This document shows positions 914 through 52,390 of a stretch of 64,000 nt of DNA, piece after piece. The position numbers and the translations under genes were made by a program. Source of the DNA: Paraburkholderia caballeronis (GTDB lineage: Bacteria > Pseudomonadota > Gammaproteobacteria > Burkholderiales > Burkholderiaceae); contig NZ_FNSR01000002.1 of NCBI RefSeq assembly GCF_900104845.1, forward strand, positions 1,984,001-2,048,000, in the 5' to 3' direction. Each line of letters starts with the position of its first letter. Position 1 is the first letter of the stretch. The notes beneath the pieces were generated by a model that searched no databases, was not told the DNA's origin, and saw only the letters and a list, made by a program, of their open reading frames with translations.

Positions 914-3900
914 ATGCATCTGTTGCGCACGGTGCCGGGCGGGTTCGTCGACGACACCGAAGGCGTCGTGCGGATCGACCAGCGCCCGGCCGACATCGTC
1001 GTGCTGAGTTCGGCGGACACGACGCTGTCGCTGCTCGCGAGCGTTGCGCCGCGCCTCGGTGCGGGTTTTCCGTCGATCCGGCTCGCGAACGTCACGTTCC
1101 TGCGCCAGCCGGCGTCCGTCGATTTTTACGTGGACGACGTGTTGCAGCACGCGCGCGCGGTGATCGTCGACCATCTCGGCGGCGAGAGCTACTGGCCTTA
1201 TGGGATCGAGCAGGTGGTCGCGCTCGCGCAGCGCCGGCAGCAGACGCTCGCGATGTTCTCCGGCGATCTTCAGGAGGACCCGCACCTGCTCGCGCGCAGC
1301 ACCGCCGACGCGGACCTGTGCCGGCAGTTGTGGCGTTATCTGCGCGAAGGCGGCCCGCAGAACGCGGAAGCGTTCCTGCGCTGCATCGCGCACCGCGTGT
1401 TCGGCTTCGGCGCGGAGCCGCCGCCGCCGCGCGCGTTGCCGGCCGCGACGCTGTATCACCCGGCGCACGACACGCCGACGATCGCGGACTGGCAGGCGCG
1501 CTGGCGCGCCGGCGCGCCGGTCGCCGCGATCCTGTTCTACAAGGCGCATTTGCAGGCCGCGAACACTGCGGCGTTCGACGCGCTGATCGATGCGCTCGAC
1601 GCGGAAGGCATCAACCCGCTGCCGGTCGCGATCACGTCGCTGAAGGATGCGTTGAGCCGCGCGGTCGTGCAGGAATTGTGCGCCGCGCACGATGTGGGGC
1701 TGGTGCTGAACACGACCGCGTTCGCGGTGTCGTCGCCGGACGATCCGGAAACGTTCGAACTCGCCGGCGACGCGCCGGTGTTGCAGGTGATCCTGAGCGG
1801 CGGCAATCGCGACGCGTGGCTGAAGGACAACCACGGGCTGAGTTCGCGCGACATCGCGATGCACGTCGCGCTGCCGGAGGTGGACGGCCGCATCGTCACG
1901 CGCGCGATCAGCTTCAAGGGGCTCGCGTACCGCTGCCCGCATACCGAGGTGGACGTCGTCCGTTACCAGCCGGACGCGGAGCGCGTGCGTTTCGTCGCGG
2001 AACTGGCGCGGCGCTGGTGCCGGTTGCGCCAGGCCGCGAATGCGGACAAGAAACTCGCGCTGATTCTTGCGAACTATCCGGTCAGCGAAGGGCGGATCGG
2101 CAACGGCGTCGGGCTCGATACGCCGGCGTCGGCGCTCGCGATTCTCGCGATGCTGCGCGACGCCGGTTATCGCACCGACGCGCTGCCCGCCGACGGCGAC
2201 GCGCTGCTGCGCACGCTGACCGAAGGCGTGACGAACGATCCGGCCGTGCGCGATCTGCGGCCCGCGTTGCAGAGCCTGTCGCTCGACGATTACGCGGACT
2301 ATGCGTCGCGTCTGCCGGCCGGCGTGCTCGACGCGGTGACGCGCCGCTGGGGACCGCCGCACGCGGACCCGACCGTGCGGCGCGGCCGCTTCATGATTGC
2401 GGGCTGGCGCTGCGGGCATCTGTTCGTCGGCATCCAGCCGCCGCGCTCCCGCGAACTGAACGACTACGCGAGTTACCACGACGCGGAACTCGTGCCGCCG
2501 CACGCCTATCTTGCGTTTTACTTCTGGCTGCGGCACCGGTTCGGCATCGACGCGGTGGTGCACGTCGGCAAGCACGGCAACCTCGAATGGCTGCCGGGCA
2601 AGAGCGTCGCGTTGAGCAGCGAGTGCTGGCCCGACCTGATTCTCGGGCCGCTGCCGCATCTGTACCCGTTCATCGTGAACGATCCCGGCGAGGGCAGCCA
2701 GGCGAAGCGGCGCGCGCAGGCGGTCATCATCGATCACCTGATGCCGCCGCTGACGCGCGCCGAAAACTACGGTCCGTTGCAGGACCTCGAACGTCAGGTG
2801 GACGAATACTACGACGCGCTGATGGTCGATCCGCGCCGCGCGAAGCTGCTGAGGCGCACGATCCTCGCGACGATCGTCGAACACCGGCTGCACGACGAAC
2901 TGAGCGTCGCGGAACCGAATGGACAGGACGCGGAGGACGAACTGCTGACGCGCGTCGATGCGTGGCTGTGCGAGCTGAAGGAAGCGCAGATCCGCGACGG
3001 GCTGCATACGTTCGGGCAATCGCCGCAAGGCGTGCAGCGGCGCGACACGTTGCTCGCGCTCGCGCGTTTTCCGGTCGGCGACGGGCGCGGGCGCAACGCG
3101 AGCCTGATCGATGCGCTCGCGCTCGATCTCGGCGTCGGGCAGCGGTTCGATCCGCTGTCGCCGGACTGGTCGGCCGAGTGGACCGGGCCGAGGCCCGACG
3201 CGCTGCTGCGCGTCAGCGACGCGCCGTGGCGGCACAACGGCGATACGCGCGAGCGGCTTGAACTGCTCGCGGCGGAACTGCTGGATGCGTTGTGCGATGC
3301 GGATGACGCGAGTTCGACCGATGCCGCGCGGCCGCTTGCGGCCGCGCTCGAACGAACGGCGCTCGAACGAACGGCGCTCGAACGAACGGCGCTCGAACGA
3401 ACGGCGCTCGAACGAACGGCGCTCGAACGAACGGCGCTCGAACGAACGGCGCTCGAACGAACGGCGCTCGAACGAACGGCGCTCGAACGAACGACGCTCG
3501 AACGAACAAAGCTCGACCGCACCGCGCCAGTCCTCGGCCGCCTGCGCACCGACGTGCTGCCGCGCCTCGACGCCTGCGGCGAGCAGGAAATGACCCAGTT
3601 GCGCCGCGGCCTCGAAGGCCGTTTCGTGCCGCCGGGGCCGAGCGGTTCGCCGTCGCGCGGCCGGCCGGACGTGCTGCCGACCGGCCGCAACTTCTATTCG
3701 GTCGATACGCGCGCGATCCCGACCCAGGCCGCGTGGGCGCTCGGCCTGAAGTCCGCACAGCAACTGATCGAACGTCATCTGCAAGAACACGGCGACTATC
3801 CGCGCGCGGTCGGCCTGTCGGTGTGGGGCACCGCGACGATGCGCACCGGCGGCGACGACGTCGCGCAGGCGCTCGCGCTGATCGGCGTGCGGCCGAAGTG

Positions 3901-4891
3901 GGCGCCCGGCAGCCATCGCGTGACCGACTTCGAGATCCTGCCGATCGCCGCGTTCGACCGGCCGCGGATCGACGTGACGCTGCGCGTGTCCGGCTTTTTC
4001 CGCGACGCGTTTCCGAACGTGATCCATCTGTTCGACGCGGCCGTGCAGGCGGTGGCCGAACTCGACGAGCCCGACGACGTGAACCCGATCCGCGCGCGCG
4101 TGCGGCGCGAGCGCGACGACTGGATCGCGAAGGGGCTGTCCGCCGACGACGCGCGCCGCCGCGCGGGCTGGCGCGTGTTCAGCGCGCGGCCCGGCGCGTA
4201 TGGCGCAGGCTTGCAGGAGATCGTCGACGGCGGCCGCTGGCAGACCGACGCGGACCTCGCCTCCGCGTATCACGCATGGGGCGGTTATGCGTACACGCAG
4301 CAGCAGTCCGGCGAAGACGCGCGCGACGCGTTCGGCGTGCGGCTCGCGGCGATCGACGTGGTGCTGCACAACCAGGACAACCGCGAGCACGACGTGCTCG
4401 ATTCGAACGACTACTACCAGTTCCACGGCGGGATGGCCGTCGCGGTGCGGCACTTCGCGGGCGCGCAGCCGACGCTCTATCACGCGGACCACAGCAACCC
4501 GGCCGCGCCGGCGATCCGTCCGCTGACCGAGGAGATCGCGCGCGTGATCCGCTCGCGCGTCGTGAACCCGAAGTGGCTCGACGGCGTGAAGCGGCACGGC
4601 TACAAGGGCGCGGCGGAAATCGCCGCGACCGTCGATTATCTGTACGGCTACGATGCGACCGCGCGCGTCGTCGCCGATCATCAATATGCGCTGGTCGCAA
4701 ACGCGTATCTGAACGACGCCGACACGCGCGCGTTTCTCGAACGGCACAATCCGCATGCGCTGCACGGCATCTGCGAACGGCTGCTCGAAGCGATGCAGCG
4801 CGGGTTGTGGCAGTCGCCGGGCGACTATCGCGCGCAGATCGAACAGCATCTGATCGCAGCCGAACAGCGTATCGAGGGAGCACCTTCATGA
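914..4891 (+). CDS. cobN: Cobaltochelatase large subunit CobN
   Basis: A 1325-aa protein of the CobN/BchH/ChlH family, the large subunit that binds hydrogenobyrinate a,c-diamide and the incoming cobalt in the late-insertion, oxygen-tolerant B12 route. The length is slightly above the usual size of about 1250-1280 aa, and the excess is explained by an inserted pentapeptide repeat (ALERT, about residues 811-870). Family-typical segments include [13 protein letters not shown] (about bases 2563-2600) and the conserved C-terminal block with ENRxHD-like [15 protein letters not shown]. The ATG at 914 follows cobW by 6 bases, and the stop overlaps the ATPase start by 4 bases (ATGA), so the genes are translationally coupled. 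The partner subunits here are ChlI/ChlD-like rather than CobS/CobT. Confidence 0.95.
3346..3525 (+). repeat. 15-bp tandem repeat array inside cobN
   Basis: Nine identical copies of GCTCGAACGAACGGC run from 3346 to 3480, followed by three diverging copies (3481-3495, 3496-3510, 3511-3525). In frame they encode ALERT pentapeptides, then TLERT and KLDRT. Identity at the base level, including third positions, indicates recent slippage or unequal-crossover expansion. A period divisible by three keeps the gene open. The array sits in a linker between conserved CobN blocks. Confidence 0.97.
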
Positions 4892-5949
4892 CCGTATCGT
4901 CCGGCGGCAACCGGCCGGTGTTTCCGTTCGCGGCGCTGATCGGTCAGCCCGCGTTGCAGCAGGCGCTGCTGCTCGCGGCGATCGATCCGGGGATCGGCGG
5001 CGTGCTCGTCAGCGGGCCGCGCGGCACCGCGAAATCGACGGCGGCGCGCGCGCTCGCCGAACTGCTGCCGGAAGGGCGTTTCGTCACGCTGCCGCTCGGC
5101 GCGAGCGAGGACCGGCTGATCGGCACGCTCGACATCGAAAGCGCGCTGCGCGAGGGTTCGGTGCGCTTCTCGCCGGGGCTGCTCGCGCAGGCGCATCGCG
5201 GCGTGCTGTACGTCGACGAAATCAATCTGCTGCCGGACGCACTGGTCGACGTGCTGCTCGACGCCGCCGCGAGCGGCGTGAACACGATCGAGCGCGACGG
5301 CATCTCGCACAGTCACGATGCGCGTTTCGTGCTGATCGGCACGATGAATCCGGAAGAGGGCGAACTGCGGCCGCAACTGCTCGACCGCTTCGGGCTGATG
5401 GTCGAACTGGAGAACTGTTTCGATCCGCAGGTGCGTCGCGACATCGTGAACGCGCGGCTCGAATTCGACGCGGACCCGCAGCGGTTCAGCGACCGCCATG
5501 CGCCGCAACGCGACGACTACGTGCGGCGCATCGAGGCGGCGCGCGCCGTGTTGCCGGCGCTTCGGTTCGACGATGCGGTGCATCGGCGGGTCGGGCAGTG
5601 GTGCATCGAGGCCGCCGTCGATGGCTTGCGCGCGGACCTCGTGATGCTGCGTGCGGCGCGCGCGTTGGCCGCTTACGAGCAGGCGTCGTCGATCACGCCC
5701 GCGCATGTGGACCGCGTGGCCGATGCGGTGCTGAAGCATCGACGGCGCGCGGAAGGCAAGCCGCAGCCGGACGACGGCGAGGGGGCTTCGCGCGACGAAT
5801 CGCGTGACACGACATCCCCGCAGCCGCCGCACGACGGCAAGACCGCACCACAGACGGCCGACGAAAGCGACTGGGGTTATCTGCCGCCGGAACCGGCCGG
5901 CATCGACCCGGTGAAAGGCGTCGTCCCGCTCGCCGCAAAAAAACGCTGA
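4888..5949 (+). CDS. ChlI/BchI-like AAA+ ATPase, small cobaltochelatase subunit
   Basis: A 353-aa AAA+ protein of the magnesium-chelatase ChlI type. It has a Walker A motif GPRGTAKST (about residues 38-46), a Walker B motif [10 protein letters not shown] and sensor-1 region [18 protein letters not shown]. Beside cobN it should act as the ATP-driven motor of a class-I cobaltochelatase. The ATG overlaps the cobN stop (ATGA). The last codons are GCA AAA AAA CGC TGA: a run of seven A (5937-5943) right before the stop, followed by a hairpin, with a VWA domain open in the -1 frame. I infer that normal termination yields this short subunit and that a -1 shift yields a 582-aa ChlD-like protein ending at 6635. 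No separate small-subunit gene is visible. Confidence 0.9.
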
Positions 5950-5997
5950 GCCATCGGGACGGCGCCGCCGCCGGTTCGACCGGCGGTTTCCGATGGC
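5937..5997 (+). promoter_or_regulatory. Candidate -1 programmed ribosomal frameshift signal
   Basis: The slippery heptamer A_AAA_AAA lies at 5937-5943 in the phase needed for a -1 shift (zero-frame codons AAA AAA at 5938-5943). The zero-frame stop TGA is at 5947-5949. A hairpin begins 6 bases after the heptamer: outer stem GCCATCGG (5950-5957) pairs with CCGATGGC (5990-5997), and an inner 8-bp stem CCGCCGGT (5968-5975) pairs with ACCGGCGG (5979-5986) around a 3-base loop. The -1 frame is open from 5943 to the stop at 6633-6635. All three classical elements (slippery site, spacer, downstream structure) are present. Transcriptional slippage on A7 is the main alternative. Confidence 0.82.
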
Positions 5998-6635
5998 CGC
6001 AGCGACAGGGCGCGGGTTTGCCGACGCGCGGCGATGCACGACGAGGCGCACGCAGCGGCGCGCGCCGCATCGCATGGCCGCCGACGCTCGCGGCGAAGCG
6101 CGCGCAGCCGTTCGACGTTTCGCATCTGCGTTTCAGGCCCGAAATCCCGCGCGGCGGCGCGCTGCATTGTTTCGTGCTCGACTGTTCGGGGTCGATGATG
6201 AGCGGCCGGCAACTCGCGCATGCGAAAGGACTGCTCGTTGCATTGTTCGACCAGGTGGGCGCATCGCGCGACGACGCGGTTTTGATCTGCTTCGGCGGCG
6301 CGCGCGCGGATGTGCGTTTCGGTCCGGCGATTCCGCGCTGGTGGAACGAACGCTGGCTGGAGCCGATCGGCGGCGGGGGCGGCACGCCGCTCGCGCACGG
6401 CATCCGCGCGGCGCGCACGGTGCTCGCGCGCGCGGCGAGACGGCGGCCCGCGCAGCAACGCTGGTTATGGCTGCTGACGGACGGACGCAGCGCGGACCGT
6501 CCGGCGCGTCCGCTCGAAGCGGACCGCACGGTGCTGGTCGATTTCGAGCGCGGCGCGGTCCGGCTCGGCCGTTGCGCGGCGCTCGCCGACGCCTGGGACG
6601 GCCTCTATCTCACGCCGGACGATCTGCTGGGTTAG
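5943..6635 (+). CDS. VWA domain, C-terminal part of a frameshift-made ChlD-like chelatase subunit
   Basis: In the -1 frame relative to the upstream ATPase, 230 codons stay open to a TAG at 6633-6635. They encode a basic, Pro/Gly-rich linker and a von Willebrand A domain with the MIDAS motif DCSGSM and the later LTDG motif. ChlD/CobT-type medium subunits consist of a ChlI-like AAA domain, a linker and a VWA domain; joining residues 1-352 of the ATPase to this stretch gives exactly that order (582 aa). As a free-standing gene it would have to start at a TTG (6018) with no evident ribosome binding site, which makes expression by frameshift more likely. The 3' end overlaps the convergent cbiG-cobJ gene by 26 bases. 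Confidence 0.8.
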
Positions 6636-8379
6636 CGTTGCCGTTGCCGTCGTCTGGATCGCCAGGATACCAGCGCGGCGTGTAGATCCACTCGCGCTGC
6701 CCCGGATAAACGACCTTGCGCGTCTGCGACGACCCGACGATCACCATCGTCCGCATATCGACCTGGTCGGCGCGCAGCGCGCCGAGCGGGGTCGTCGTCA
6801 GCATCGCGCCGGGGCGGCCGACATCGCGGCCGAGCACGACCGGCGTGTCGGCCGACCGCACGGCGCGCAGCACGTCCAGCGCGCGGTCGAGTTGCCACGG
6901 CCGCGCGCGGGAGATCGGGTTGTACAGCGCGATCACGAAGTCCGCTTCGGCCGCGTGGCGCAGCCGCGTTTCGATGGTGCGCCACGGCTTCAGGTTGTCC
7001 GACAGCGACACGATGCAGAAGTCGTGGCCGAGCGGCGCGCCCGCGAGCGCGGCCGTCGCCATCGCGGCCGAGACGCCCGGCACGATCTCCAGTTCGACGT
7101 CGGCCCATGCGGGGTCGGCCGCGCCGTCGAGCGCTTCGAGCACGGCGGCCGCCATCGCGAACACGCCGGGGTCGCCGGACGACACGACCGCGACGCGGCG
7201 GCCTTCGCTCGCGAGTTCGAACGCATGGCGCGCGCGTTGCAGTTCTTCGCGGTTGTCGGTGCCGTGCAGTTGCTGGCCGTCGCGGAACGGGCCGGCCATC
7301 TTCACGTAGGTGGCGTAGCCGATGATGTCGGTTGCGTCGTCGAGCGCGCGGCGCGCGGCCGGCACCCTCAGCGCGGCGTCGCCGGGGCCGAGGCCGACGA
7401 CGCTCAGCCTGCCGCGCGCGCGGCCGATCCGCAGCGGGTCGATCGGCTGCTCGCAGACGGCGATCGCGGCGCTGTCGCCCGCGTCGAGCGCGCGATAACG
7501 GACGGGTATCGCGGCGGCGGCGAGCATCGCATGCGGATCGTCGTTGCCATGATCGTGCGTCGCCACGTAGCGCAACGGCACGCCGAGCGAGGCCGCGGCT
7601 TCCACCGCGTCAGCATCGCCGATGAGCCGGCGCGGCACGAGCAGCGTTGCGAGCGAACGCATGGCGATATGGTGGGCGTCGAGCATCCGGCGCACGTCGT
7701 CGGCCATCCGCTCGCCGCGCGTATTGAGGGCGACCACCACGCAGCGCGGATGAATCAGCAGTTCGTCGGCGCTTCCCTCGGACGTCAATTCGCTGACGCG
7801 GATCGCGAGCCGCGCATCGTCCGCGAGCGGCACGCCGGTGCCGTCGAGCCACGGCGCGTCGCCTTCGAGCCGCGCGGCTTCACCGGCGAGCAGGCTCGAT
7901 ACGAAGTGCTTGCCCTGTTCGATGCTCGCGAGCGCGTAACCGTCGGGCGGATTCAGCAGGCAGGTGCCGAACCGCAATTCGCCGCTCGTCGTGATCGCGG
8001 CGGCGGTCTGCAACGCGTCCGCGATCTCGCGCGCCATGACGTTCACGCCCGCGAGTCCGCCGAGCAGCGGCACGACCGCGCTGCCGTCCTCCGCGACCGC
8101 CAGCACCGGCGGTTCGACGCCCTTGTCCGCGAGCGCCGGCGCAAGCGAGCGGATCACGATGCCGGCCGCGCACAGCACGACGAGCGGCGTGCCGCGCGCA
8201 TACAACTCGCGCAGATGCGGGCCGAGCGCGTCGTAACGTTCGTCGGCGTCATCGCTGCCGATGCGCGGATGCAGCCCATGCACGCGCGCGCCGGGATAAC
8301 AGGCCTGAATGCGCCGCGCGGTCGCGAGCGCGGATGGCCCGAGCACGACGATCGCGGGCGCGGCGTTCAGCGTTGCCAT
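6610..8379 (-). CDS. Fused CbiG / CobJ: lactone-opening enzyme plus precorrin-3B C17-methyltransferase
   Basis: A 589-aa bifunctional protein. The N-terminal part (about 1-330) matches CbiG, with LLGGLAGVN and a C-terminal CbiG domain; CbiG opens the ring-A delta-lactone in cobalt-precorrin-5A. The C-terminal part (about 335-589) is a tetrapyrrole methyltransferase of the CobJ/CbiH type with [19 protein letters not shown] and [10 protein letters not shown]; it methylates C17 with ring contraction. The ATG at 8377-8379 overlaps the end of cobI by 13 bases, giving the operon cobG-cobH-cobI-cbiG/cobJ on this strand. The upstream open frame to 9600 is a shadow of cobI and cobH. Having CbiG alongside CobG suggests a route without CobF, with CbiG and CbiD doing its work. 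Confidence 0.93.
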
Positions 8380-43852: not shown

Positions 43853-44264
43853 CGTTATCGAGCCGGGCCGTTCGGCCCGGCGCTTTCCCTTCACGACAGG
43901 TGAACGCTCCTCTTGTCGCGATGCCGCGCCGGCACGATCCGCTGCCGAAAGCCCGCTGAAATCCTTCGTCGCCGCATTCGCGCGGCCAGCTTGCGTTGCG
44001 CGATGCACCGCGAATGTTCGCGGACGCCGATGCTTTCACTCGCATTCCGTTCGAACGAACATCGTCTATAACTCTAGTGTTTTGCGCGTGCAGCGAACGA
44101 ACCGGTTTCGGTAGCGCCCGACGGCCGCGGTCCGCCCAGGACCCGGAGGAGACAGCCGTAAGCGGGCGGCTGCCTTATCCGGACGCGGCCCGCGCGTCGC
44201 CATGCCCAGCCAGCAGTTGCAGTTTTCACGAGCCGTACAACCCTTATAAAAAGGAGACGCTTTG
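43853..44264. other. Intergenic region before the sorbosone-dehydrogenase-like gene
   Basis: About 410 bases without a gene. It holds the second hairpin (43862-43881), a TATAAC hexamer at 44066-44071 that could be a -10 element, a GTTCGAAC palindrome just before it, and the ribosome binding site AAGGAG (44251-44256) of the next gene. Confidence 0.4.
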
Positions 44265-50263: not shown

Positions 50264-50268
50264 GATGC
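50264..50268 (+). repeat. Left copy of 5-bp target-site duplication
   Basis: GATGC directly before the element's terminal TGT. The same five bases follow the element's terminal ACA at 51966-51970. A 5-bp duplication is what Tn7-like and Tn5053-like transposons produce. Confidence 0.9.
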
Positions 50269-50417
50269 TGTGAACGAATAATAGAGCTTGACACGGCGAG
50301 CCTTGAGGAATCAAAGGCTTGGCGATAGGCGTGATCGCGATCCATTGAAATAGAGTTCGACACAATTCCCGACTTGCTCTATGGATGCGGGCATTTTGCG
50401 ACAAAATAGGTTGACAC
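50269..50417. repeat. Left transposon end with three spaced binding-site-like repeats
   Basis: The terminal repeat starts TGTGAACGAA at 50269. Core sites are AATAGAGCTTGACAC (50280-50294), AATAGAGTTCGACAC (50349-50363) and AATAGGTTGACAC (50405-50417), all in the same direction, with starts 69 and 56 bases apart. Confidence 0.88.
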
Positions 50418-50497
50418 AAGTACGGCACGATGCGGGCTAAAGACCGATGGCACTTCACACGCATCACGCCGGCCTGGTCTCCTTTCATATGCTCTAG

Positions 50498-50752
50498 TTA
50501 GCTCCGACAGTACCGCCATAACTTCATGATCGCCACATAGGCGAGCACTGCTACGAGCAATTCGATAGTCACCCACGCCACGAAAATCAAATCTTCCGGG
50601 TCCCCAATGCCGAGCCAGTCCGACGCACGCCACCAGGCGGCTAGATGCCTCTCCGTCATTGGGAAGGGATACGGGCGAATATAACGAACCGAAAGGACGA
50701 ACAGACACACAAACAGGGCGACCTTGAACGCCCTACGGGCAAGTGTCGCCAT
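50498..50752 (-). CDS. Small membrane protein, probable immunity to the adjacent Tlde1-like effector
   Basis: An 84-aa protein from the ATG at 50750-50752 (an in-frame start at 50767 adds five residues). Two hydrophobic segments (ALFVCLFVLSVRYI and LIFVAWVTIELLVAVLAYVAIM) flank a Trp-rich loop. The gene starts inside the last 20 bases of the effector gene, a coupling typical of toxin-immunity pairs, and immunity proteins to periplasmic cell-wall effectors are usually exported or membrane-bound. There is no recognised domain, so the role is inferred from position and topology. Confidence 0.68.
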   Translation of the reverse strand: MATLARRAFKVALFVCLFVLSVRYIRPYPFPMTERHLAAWWRASDWLGIGDPEDLIFVAWVTIELLVAVLAYVAIMKLWRYCRS

Positions 50753-51251
50753 ACGTGATGACCTCAATTATTCCGTAAGCGTTAAGCCCCGAATTGCGGG
50801 CCGGGATAGTCGTAGTGTGCAGGAATGCGTTGCGGATTCTCATAAAATCAACGCGGCTCGACAGGGTGATACAGCCTAGCGAAATACCCTGCCCACCTGC
50901 CGGATGTAGCCGGAAATGCCCGCGCTGGACGCCGTTTACCCAAGTCCTGTCATCAATCGCTCCGTCATCCCGATACAGCGCGAACCAGTCACTGTGATTG
51001 GTTGCACTGCCCCATGCGGTATTCCACGTATCCTTCGCCATAGCAAGGGCCTGTGAGCCGAGTCCGCCCGTGGGCCGGTCTACGACCCAATACCTACCGG
51101 CAGGGATCGGCCCTTTGTTAGGGATCGTCGTGCAGCCGCCTCGATTTCGGTATTGTTGGTCACCTGAAAATGCGTTGAACGTACCGACGCCAAAAATCGT
51201 CAAGGGCGACAACGGCTCGTTATTGACCAGAAATTTACCCTGATAAGCCAT
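50733..51251 (-). CDS. Tlde1-like (DUF2778) L,D-transpeptidase-fold effector
   Basis: A 172-aa protein. The C-terminal half has GHFRLHPAGGQGISLGCITL, with His116 and Cys127 in the layout of L,D-transpeptidase-like catalytic centres and of the type VI effector family Tlde1. The N-terminal part (FNAFSG, NKGPIPAGRYWVVDRP) also matches DUF2778. Tlde1 enzymes attack peptidoglycan tetrapeptides in target cells. There is no signal peptide, as expected for a protein carried inside an Hcp tube. The ATG at 51249-51251 follows a GGGGGA site and lies 9 bases after the hcp stop; the next gene is the probable immunity gene. Confidence 0.88.
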   Translation of the reverse strand: MAYQGKFLVNNEPLSPLTIFGVGTFNAFSGDQQYRNRGGCTTIPNKGPIPAGRYWVVDRPTGGLGSQALAMAKDTWNTAWGSATNHSDWFALYRDDGAIDDRTWVNGVQRGHFRLHPAGGQGISLGCITLSSRVDFMRIRNAFLHTTTIPARNSGLNAYGIIEVITYGDTCP

Positions 51252-51260
51252 CACTCCCCC

Positions 51261-51746
51261 TTACCCGCGCTCGTTCCACGAGTCCGTGAATTTAATATTG
51301 CCGTCGAGATAGTGCCATGTGATGCGGTCGTACATCATGGATACAGCCTCAACGTGATTGAGCGTGGACGCCTGCGACAGTTTCGTGTTGGACATGCCGG
51401 GGTTGACGCCGCAGACTTTCACGCCTTCCAGCAGCATCACGAAATACACTTCCTCCTTGCCCGCGTCGTTGATGCGATACCACTTGATTTCGGCGGATTG
51501 CAACGTTTGGCCCTTTGCTACGGCCTTGTAAAGATAAGGCGTCGCAGCATCAAACTCTTTTTCGAACGCGGCGACCGAGTGAGTTCGCGCGCCAGTTATC
51601 TTGCCGTTCGCAGCATCAACCGGCAGGTTTACGCCGTGTCCAAAACTGATAATTTCTATGCTGCCTTCGCGGCCTTGCACGGTTGACGAGCCTTTGATAT
51701 CTGCGCCGCCATCATCTTTAGGCCACATATACGCGGGAATCGGCAT
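51261..51746 (-). CDS. hcp: Hcp tube protein of the type VI secretion system (orphan)
   Basis: A 161-aa Hcp1-family protein from the ATG at 51744-51746, with AAGGA upstream. It has the standard opening (PAYMWPKDD, GSSTVQGREGSIEIISFGHGVN) and the later motifs HSVAAFEKEFDAATPYLYKAVAKG and VYFVMLLEGVKVCGVNPG. Hcp stacks as hexamer rings and carries small effectors in its lumen. No other secretion-system gene is in the window, so it must serve an apparatus encoded elsewhere. It is the first gene of the transposon cargo and directly precedes a Tlde1-like effector, presumably its passenger. Confidence 0.94.
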   Translation of the reverse strand: MPIPAYMWPKDDGGADIKGSSTVQGREGSIEIISFGHGVNLPVDAANGKITGARTHSVAAFEKEFDAATPYLYKAVAKGQTLQSAEIKWYRINDAGKEEVYFVMLLEGVKVCGVNPGMSNTKLSQASTLNHVEAVSMMYDRITWHYLDGNIKFTDSWNERG

Positions 51747-51899
51747 GCTGATTTTGTCCTTCGGTTGATTGAACGGGGTTCCGGTCGGTGCCAGAGCCCG
51801 AAACAATGAACGAAGACAGCAGTGCAACTCCATGATCTGGAACAGATGACTGCCTGACTGCTATCTGCCGATACTCATCGCTTCGGGGACGTGCTTCTC
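51747..51899 (-). promoter_or_regulatory. Cargo promoter region inside the transposon
   Basis: About 150 bases between the right-end repeats and the hcp start must contain the promoter of the three-gene cargo. I could not identify a convincing sigma-70 pair. A TGGCAC hexamer exists on the coding strand but lacks the TTGCA partner expected of a sigma-54 promoter. Confidence 0.3.
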
Positions 51900-51965
51900 G
51901 TGTCAAACTTTATTGTTTTGTGTCAAGCGTTTTTGTCCTGTGTCGAACTCTATTGTTCGTTCACA
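51900..51965. repeat. Right transposon end with three tandem 20-bp-period repeats
   Basis: Reading inward on the minus strand: AATAGAGTTCGACAC (51940-51954), AAAAACGCTTGACAC (51920-51934), AATAAAGTTTGACAC (51900-51914), each start 20 bases from the next. The terminal repeat ends with ACA at 51963-51965, followed by the GATGC duplication at 51966-51970. Confidence 0.9.
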
Positions 51966-52390
51966 GATGCCGGATTTTTCGTTTGCGAGACGCGAGCGAT
52001 CGTTCGTTTCCGATGCGAATGGCTTGCCGATGGATGTGGTCGCGCGTCGGTTTGACGCGAAACGGTTTTTTCGCCGGCAGCGCGTGCCGGACGCGCCCGT
52101 CGTTCGGTATTCGCGGTTTTCCGTTAAAGCCGCCAGCCGCAGCGGATCGCGGTACGCGACGTTATTCGCACAAACGGCGCGGCCACGATGCGGGACAGGC
52201 CGTCGGGTCGTTGCGGACTTGCATCCCACGAGCCGCACGCTCGTTCCCTGTTAAGAGAAGTTTAAGAAACCGCCCATAACGTCGATCCGTTTGTTTCGCC
52301 CGGGCAGCCGCGCTGCCCGAAACGATTGCGGATGCGACGCTCCCTCGCGATCGCGTCCGCAGCCTCATCCGCCGTTCAGTCGTTCATCCG
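51966..52390. other. Intergenic region between the transposon and the M23 peptidase gene
   Basis: About 425 bases starting with the right GATGC duplication. No gene is supported. Near the end, TTTAAG and CATAAC hexamers (about 52258-52280) could be promoter parts for the peptidase gene. Confidence 0.4.

Follow-up and report, generated by a model that had tools for sequence, protein, structure and literature searches.

We analyzed a 1,697-bp element at positions 50,269 to 51,965 (exact coordinates) of a 64-kb stretch of Paraburkholderia caballeronis DNA, the whole of which is called the window below. The element has Tn7-like ends and contains hcp, a gene for an effector with a Tlde1 domain and a putative immunity gene (Table 1). 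Its 26-bp terminal inverted repeats, with TGT...ACA termini as in Tn7-like ends, are identical at 23 of 26 positions, a level of agreement that would arise by chance with a probability of ~2e-11 in a single 26-mer pair of the same composition, and the element is bordered by a perfect 5-bp duplication, GATGC. When the 64 kb were scanned with the 18-bp site consensus allowing up to 5 mismatches, six of the seven matches fell inside the element, and the seventh, with 5 mismatches, was located outside it at position 44,063. The sites are spaced over ~150 bp on the left and clustered over ~70–90 bp on the right, which is the asymmetry of Tn7-like ends, and the right end corresponds to the end adjoining tnsA in relatives that carry tns genes. 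The repeats, the duplication and the three left and three 20-bp-period right sites had all been described in an earlier annotation of the sequence (the first-pass annotation) and are confirmed here. No match to tnsA, tnsB, tnsC or tniQ was found inside the 1,697 bp (locus L095); the element is therefore not autonomous, which supports its earlier description as transposase-less.

All three cargo genes are transcribed inward from the right end. The hcp product matches the Pfam family T6SS_HCP (6.7e-31; 107.7 bits versus a curated cut-off of 23.5) and the effector product matches Tlde1_dom (8.5e-32; 110.5 bits versus a curated cut-off of 30.1), and no Pfam family scored above cut-off for the 84-aa two-helix protein. 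The gene for this small membrane protein and the effector gene share a 20-nt overlap; from the adjacency and the hydrophobic stretches, we infer that the protein may be the antidote. The effector resembles Tlde1a of Salmonella in having the Tlde1 domain with its LD-transpeptidase-type motif region. The motif given in the accessible part of the Tlde1 study is HXX14-17(S/T)HGCh (PMC9638812), whereas the effector reads SLGC in both copies of the element in this genome, so that the His and the S-x-G-C are present and the His of (S/T)HGC is changed to Leu. The effector had no match among PDB sequences at E 0.01. Homologues of the effector and the immunity protein were both matched (E 1e-5) in all 27 relative loci (L030–L056), which were gathered by similarity to the element and had their ends trimmed ~1.5 kb from the match, and for 19 of them the hcp match extended over two thirds or more of the gene. 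More than one immunity-gene homologue stands beside the Tlde1 module in several relatives (L037, L038, L047, L048 and others).

The host genome (7.1 Mb, three contigs) has four TssC-family matches and six Hcp-family matches, both copies of the element counted; therefore, resident type VI secretion system (T6SS) machines are likely. One resident Hcp shares 61% identity with the Hcps of the element copies. The first-pass annotation had called the cargo a self-contained T6SS payload, and its identification of an Hcp, a Tlde1 effector and a two-helix protein stands; the payload is not self-contained, since a resident T6SS is required.

Table 1 Features of the element in the window
Feature	Position	Strand	Detail
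Target-site duplication, left copy	50264..50268	.	GATGC
Tn7-like left end, ~150 bp	50269..50419	+	three spaced TnsB-like sites: 50278-50295, 50347-50364, 50401-50418
Putative immunity gene	50498..50752	-	84 aa from ATG; two hydrophobic stretches; ORF to 50767 from TTG
Effector gene, Tlde1 domain (DUF2778)	50733..51251	-	172 aa from ATG
hcp (tssD)	51261..51746	-	161 aa from MPIP start
Tn7-like right end	51899..51965	-	three 20-bp-period sites (51899-51916, 51919-51936, 51939-51956) and 26-bp terminal repeat
Target-site duplication, right copy	51966..51970	.	GATGC

The element has a G+C content of 53.7%, lower than the 69.1% of the remaining window sequence, and is flanked by genes for a GAF-GGDEF protein and an M23 peptidase. 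A promoter scan found none (shuffles, 1.4). Phage sequences searched with the element and viral contigs searched with the end pattern gave no match, and three stretches matched in a scan of genome contigs with one right-end pattern.

The second copy and its cargo alleles

The same genome contains a second 1,697-bp copy at C3:957290-958986, between genes for a phospholipase A1 and an alpha/beta-hydrolase. At both loci the homology between the copies breaks off at the same termini, beyond which the sequences are unrelated. The strongest evidence for movement is this occurrence, at two unrelated sites, of copies with identical limits, and because both are 1,697 bp long with the same layout, the loss of the tns genes preceded the last movement. 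The first-pass annotation had proposed looking for cargo variation between identical ends, and the two copies, whose ends are nearly identical, do differ in this manner: the nucleotide identity is 97.4% in the left end, 95.9% in hcp and 94.1% in the right end, and falls to 82.0% in the effector gene and 67.4% in the immunity gene, whose products share 57% of their residues. Synonymous divergence (dS) rises from 0.18 in hcp to 0.58 in the effector gene and 1.05 in the immunity gene, and the ratio of nonsynonymous to synonymous divergence (dN/dS) is below 1 for all three.

Trees were built from 24 Hcp, 32 effector and 46 immunity rows, leaving out matches with less than 90% coverage, matches with stops and the duplicate loci L065, L067 and L069. 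In the Hcp tree the two copies are sisters (98/95), whereas in the immunity tree they fall in different supported clades together with other species. A single clade for both immunity rows was rejected with a p-AU of 1.06e-5, on an alignment of 84 columns for 46 rows, which is few columns for that number of rows. Since the ends and Hcp are shared and the immunity alleles come from different clades, alleles appear to have been exchanged inside a conserved backbone.

Ends and T6SS cargo across the Tn7-like family

In a plasmid of B. contaminans, annotated tnsA-tnsB-tnsC-tniQ genes adjoin a matching right end, and related ends accompany annotated tnsABC and tnsD/tniQ in two Pseudomonas plasmids. 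By protein match, unbroken tns sets with the family right end are present in genomes G137 and G114, the latter (G114:C5, L184/L185) in a 24.6-kb element that has a complete tnsABC-tniQ set and a CCATC duplication. Thus the full-length relatives that the first-pass annotation had proposed to look for exist in B. contaminans, G114 and G137, and its assignment of the ends to the Tn7-like type is supported both by these complete elements with matching ends and by the identical boundaries of the second copy. Inside the G114 element, another right end lies on the opposite strand at ~17984, perhaps a nested end. The tns set of the P. phymatum element (G069) is not called complete because its tnsC match is split over more than one frame, and in G029 tnsA, tnsB and tnsC were matched on a contig that stops 174 bp beyond the tnsC match.

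Both ends were found for 15 elements, 11 of which have perfect 5-bp duplications: the window copy (GATGC), a 19.4-kb element of the same genome (ATTGC), G418 (CATCA), P. megapolitana (TCCAT), G004 (AGTTT), G098 (TCGGC), B. contaminans G470 (GGTGG), G069 (CCAGA), G139 (CTGGT; its outermost bases are altered to TGC and TAT, and its limits were placed from the end models), the 691-bp element of G126 (ATAGG) and G114. No family tns protein match was found in eight of the 15, which have good ends and range from 263 bp to 24.6 kb: both copies of the 1,697-bp element and the elements of G418 (24,568 bp), P. megapolitana (7,286 bp), G139 (910 bp), G098 (783 bp), G126 (691 bp) and G004 (263 bp). With strict filters (E at most 1e-4), 20 of the 141 genus genomes had left ends and 20 had right ends; in the family sample of 398 genomes, right ends were detected in 13 (E 1e-4). 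The host genome is included in these counts. The two end models were derived from sets of 12 and 10 family ends, among them those of both copies, so that the left end in the window is recovered by a model that it helped to build.

The small elements vary in content. The 910-bp element of G139 (L182, 2721-3630) has one intact uracil-DNA glycosylase superfamily gene as cargo, and the 263-bp element of G004 (L084, 1471-1733) holds little beyond its two ends. The elements of G126 (L193, 1350-2040) and G098 (L090, 17633-18415), from two species, each contain a small ORF and align over most of their length, with 74% nucleotide identity over 533 columns and 78% over the left 93; the ORF of L193 has no Pfam family. 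At the other extreme, the 24.6-kb element of G418 (G418:C103:18748-43315, L077/L078) seems, judged by eye, to carry catabolic and transport cargo.

T6SS genes also occur in larger members. In the host genome, vgrG, an IcmF/TssM gene, tssF and tssJ are the cargo of a 19,378-bp element at C3:60412-79789 (L025, L026), which has ATTGC duplicated and begins 80 bp below a sigma gene of the rpoD type. A rearranged 3.7-kb derivative of this element with family ends is present in another species, G126 (G126:C155, L183, ~3061-6787) and is 93.6% identical to it over 2,151 bp; in this derivative the start of VgrG is fused to tssF. In G100 (G100:C2:29412-31021, L036/L115), the arrangement of the window element recurs, an hcp-Tlde1-immunity module with a decayed right end upstream of it; no left end was found at this locus. 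Intact miniatures of this kind come from one species, and the link to other species consists of a single decayed end, that of G100, and a single derivative, that of G126.

Many genomes of the genus have hcp-Tlde1-immunity matches at 67–82% nucleotide identity without such ends. Among 44 hcp-Tlde1 loci scanned with the consensus at up to 4 mismatches, sites were found only in the two copies (L029, L064) and in L036; a scan of 33 loci with the end models, the two copies excluded, found ends only at L036 and the overlapping L115, and a module on a Caballeronia plasmid (H1/L200) has no family ends. The abundance of end-less modules suggests that the cargo existed before the element captured it. 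The first-pass annotation had held that sister genomes with the same genes but no repeats would speak against a mobile element; such genes are indeed common in the genus, but they do not refute the element.

Competing explanations, mobility and significance

Taken together, we consider it highly probable that the element is a non-autonomous (miniature) member of a Burkholderiaceae Tn7-like family that carries a T6SS payload, with alleles exchanged in its backbone. By analogy with Tn7, TnsB from a helper element would bind the three left and three right sites, TnsA and TnsB would excise the element, and TnsC/TniQ would steer insertion to an intergenic target, so that mobilization would occur in trans. 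Once in place, Hcp would be exported by the resident T6SS and take the Tlde1-domain effector into neighboring bacteria, where it may attack the peptide stems of peptidoglycan, and the two-helix membrane protein would protect the producer. The Hcp gene and the ends would form the conserved backbone within which effector and immunity alleles are swapped by recombination.

Several results weigh against this reading or lend it no support. The border repeats of the second copy agree at only four of five positions (GCCGC/GTCGC), and four of the 15 two-ended elements lack a perfect duplication: this second copy, G120, the 3.7-kb element of G126, whose left end is degenerate, and G026 (L094, ~6.8 kb), in which both ends are degenerate, no duplication is visible and no tns match was found. 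In the effector tree the two copies form a weak group (94/97), so the case for exchange is strongest for the immunity gene. A search of the host genome with the family TnsB, which included no positive control, gave no match. Finally, an empty site was sought with both flanks in the 141 genomes of the genus, and no junction-crossing row was present among the matches listed; the flanking genes match there at only ~65–79% (two candidates scored per genome).

Other histories were compared with that of a mobile miniature. The element could be what remains of a complete Tn7-like island after decay and the loss of its tns genes in place, the cargo never having been mobile as a 1.7-kb unit. There are indeed large members in which T6SS cargo accompanies broken tns genes, namely C3:60412-79789 and its shrunken derivative in G126, but a remnant of this kind accounts poorly for two 1,697-bp copies with the same layout at unrelated sites, or for the other short members (263, 691, 783 and 910 bp) with perfect duplications, and we regard it as improbable. 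It is more improbable still, to the point of being hardly credible, that the locus is an ordinary orphan hcp-effector-immunity island to which the terminal repeats are irrelevant: the wide distribution of end-less modules in the genus fits such an island, yet the homology of the copies stops at the repeats, a 5-bp duplication is present and the ends match two family end models, in whose building the copies' own ends were used.

With regard to the difference between the copies, diversifying selection on the effector and immunity genes could replace allele exchange. The immunity and effector proteins diverge more than Hcp, as expected under such selection, and the weak grouping of the two effectors is compatible with it. 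However, synonymous divergence jumps as well, from 0.18 to about 1.0, so selection on the protein alone is not a sufficient explanation; furthermore, dN/dS below 1 and the placement of the immunity rows in well-supported clades with other species argue against it. We therefore judge this alternative unlikely and retain allele exchange within the mobile miniature.

The only family tns genes found in the host genome are those of the 19,378-bp element, and this set is broken: the tnsA match ends at residue 154, tnsB is missing, the tnsC match begins at residue 203 and tniQ lies in more than one frame. A search of five genomes for the Mu-transposase-C family returned the TnsB of G137 and one TniA-type protein in the host genome (C2:747190). 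The TniA/TniB-type pair at this position (L101, L114) was rejected as a helper since no family end is nearby; the right-end model found nothing there and the left-end model gave only E 0.14 and 0.71. As no intact family helper was found in this genome, movement would now need an incoming one, and the miniatures are probably stationary unless a helper enters.

Known systems share parts of this arrangement. Lan et al. 2023 (PMC10702557) described Tn7-like elements of Burkholderia (BGImetal) that have the same tnsA-tnsB-tnsC-tniQ order, a B. contaminans host, and right and left ends of 90 and 158 bp, and that probably belong to the same family as L059/G470; they differ in being 33–43-kb metal-resistance islands with tns genes, and the accessible part of that report mentions no miniature or T6SS-carrying forms. 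The Tn3-derived miniatures of Pseudomonas called TIMEs (PMC4133298) are likewise transposase-less, 262–3892 bp long, able to mobilize varied modules and with 5–6-bp duplications, but they have Tn3-family ends (38 bp), and a T6SS payload is not mentioned in the accessible text. Aux3 of Vibrio cholerae (PMC7721734) is a mobile T6SS effector-immunity module; as described in the portion available, it is prophage-like with its own integrase and att sites, and neither Tn7-like nor miniature. Orphan hcp/vgrG islands (PMC13098142) similarly pair hcp with an adjacent effector-immunity pair serving a resident T6SS, but are linked to plasmids, IS3, IS5, IS110 and ISAs1, with Tn7 absent from the main text. 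A Burkholderia contact-killing locus sits on an insertion sequence (IS) composite transposon, according to the accessible part of PMC6350997, and the available text of a review of prokaryotic miniature elements (PMC10969869) mentions Tn7 twice, once regarding its target site. No Tn7-derived miniature element with T6SS cargo was found in the literature searched, whose coverage leaves out most subscription papers.

Orphan T6SS effector-immunity islands are common, and the movement of small ones is mostly unexplained. The element described here is a vehicle of compact size whose ends and duplications are clear, which exists in two copies and whose helpers can be identified, and this makes movement in trans directly testable; it carries the idea of miniature elements over to Tn7, for cargo of one or three genes, and indicates exchange of immunity alleles inside a mobile shell. 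More tentatively, the Paraburkholderia Tn7-like family may have served repeatedly as a vehicle for T6SS weapons, with helper-dependent miniatures swapping effector-immunity alleles within a fixed shell of ends and Hcp, and larger members moving vgrG and structural tss genes between species. If so, one helper could spread a changing arsenal across a genome.
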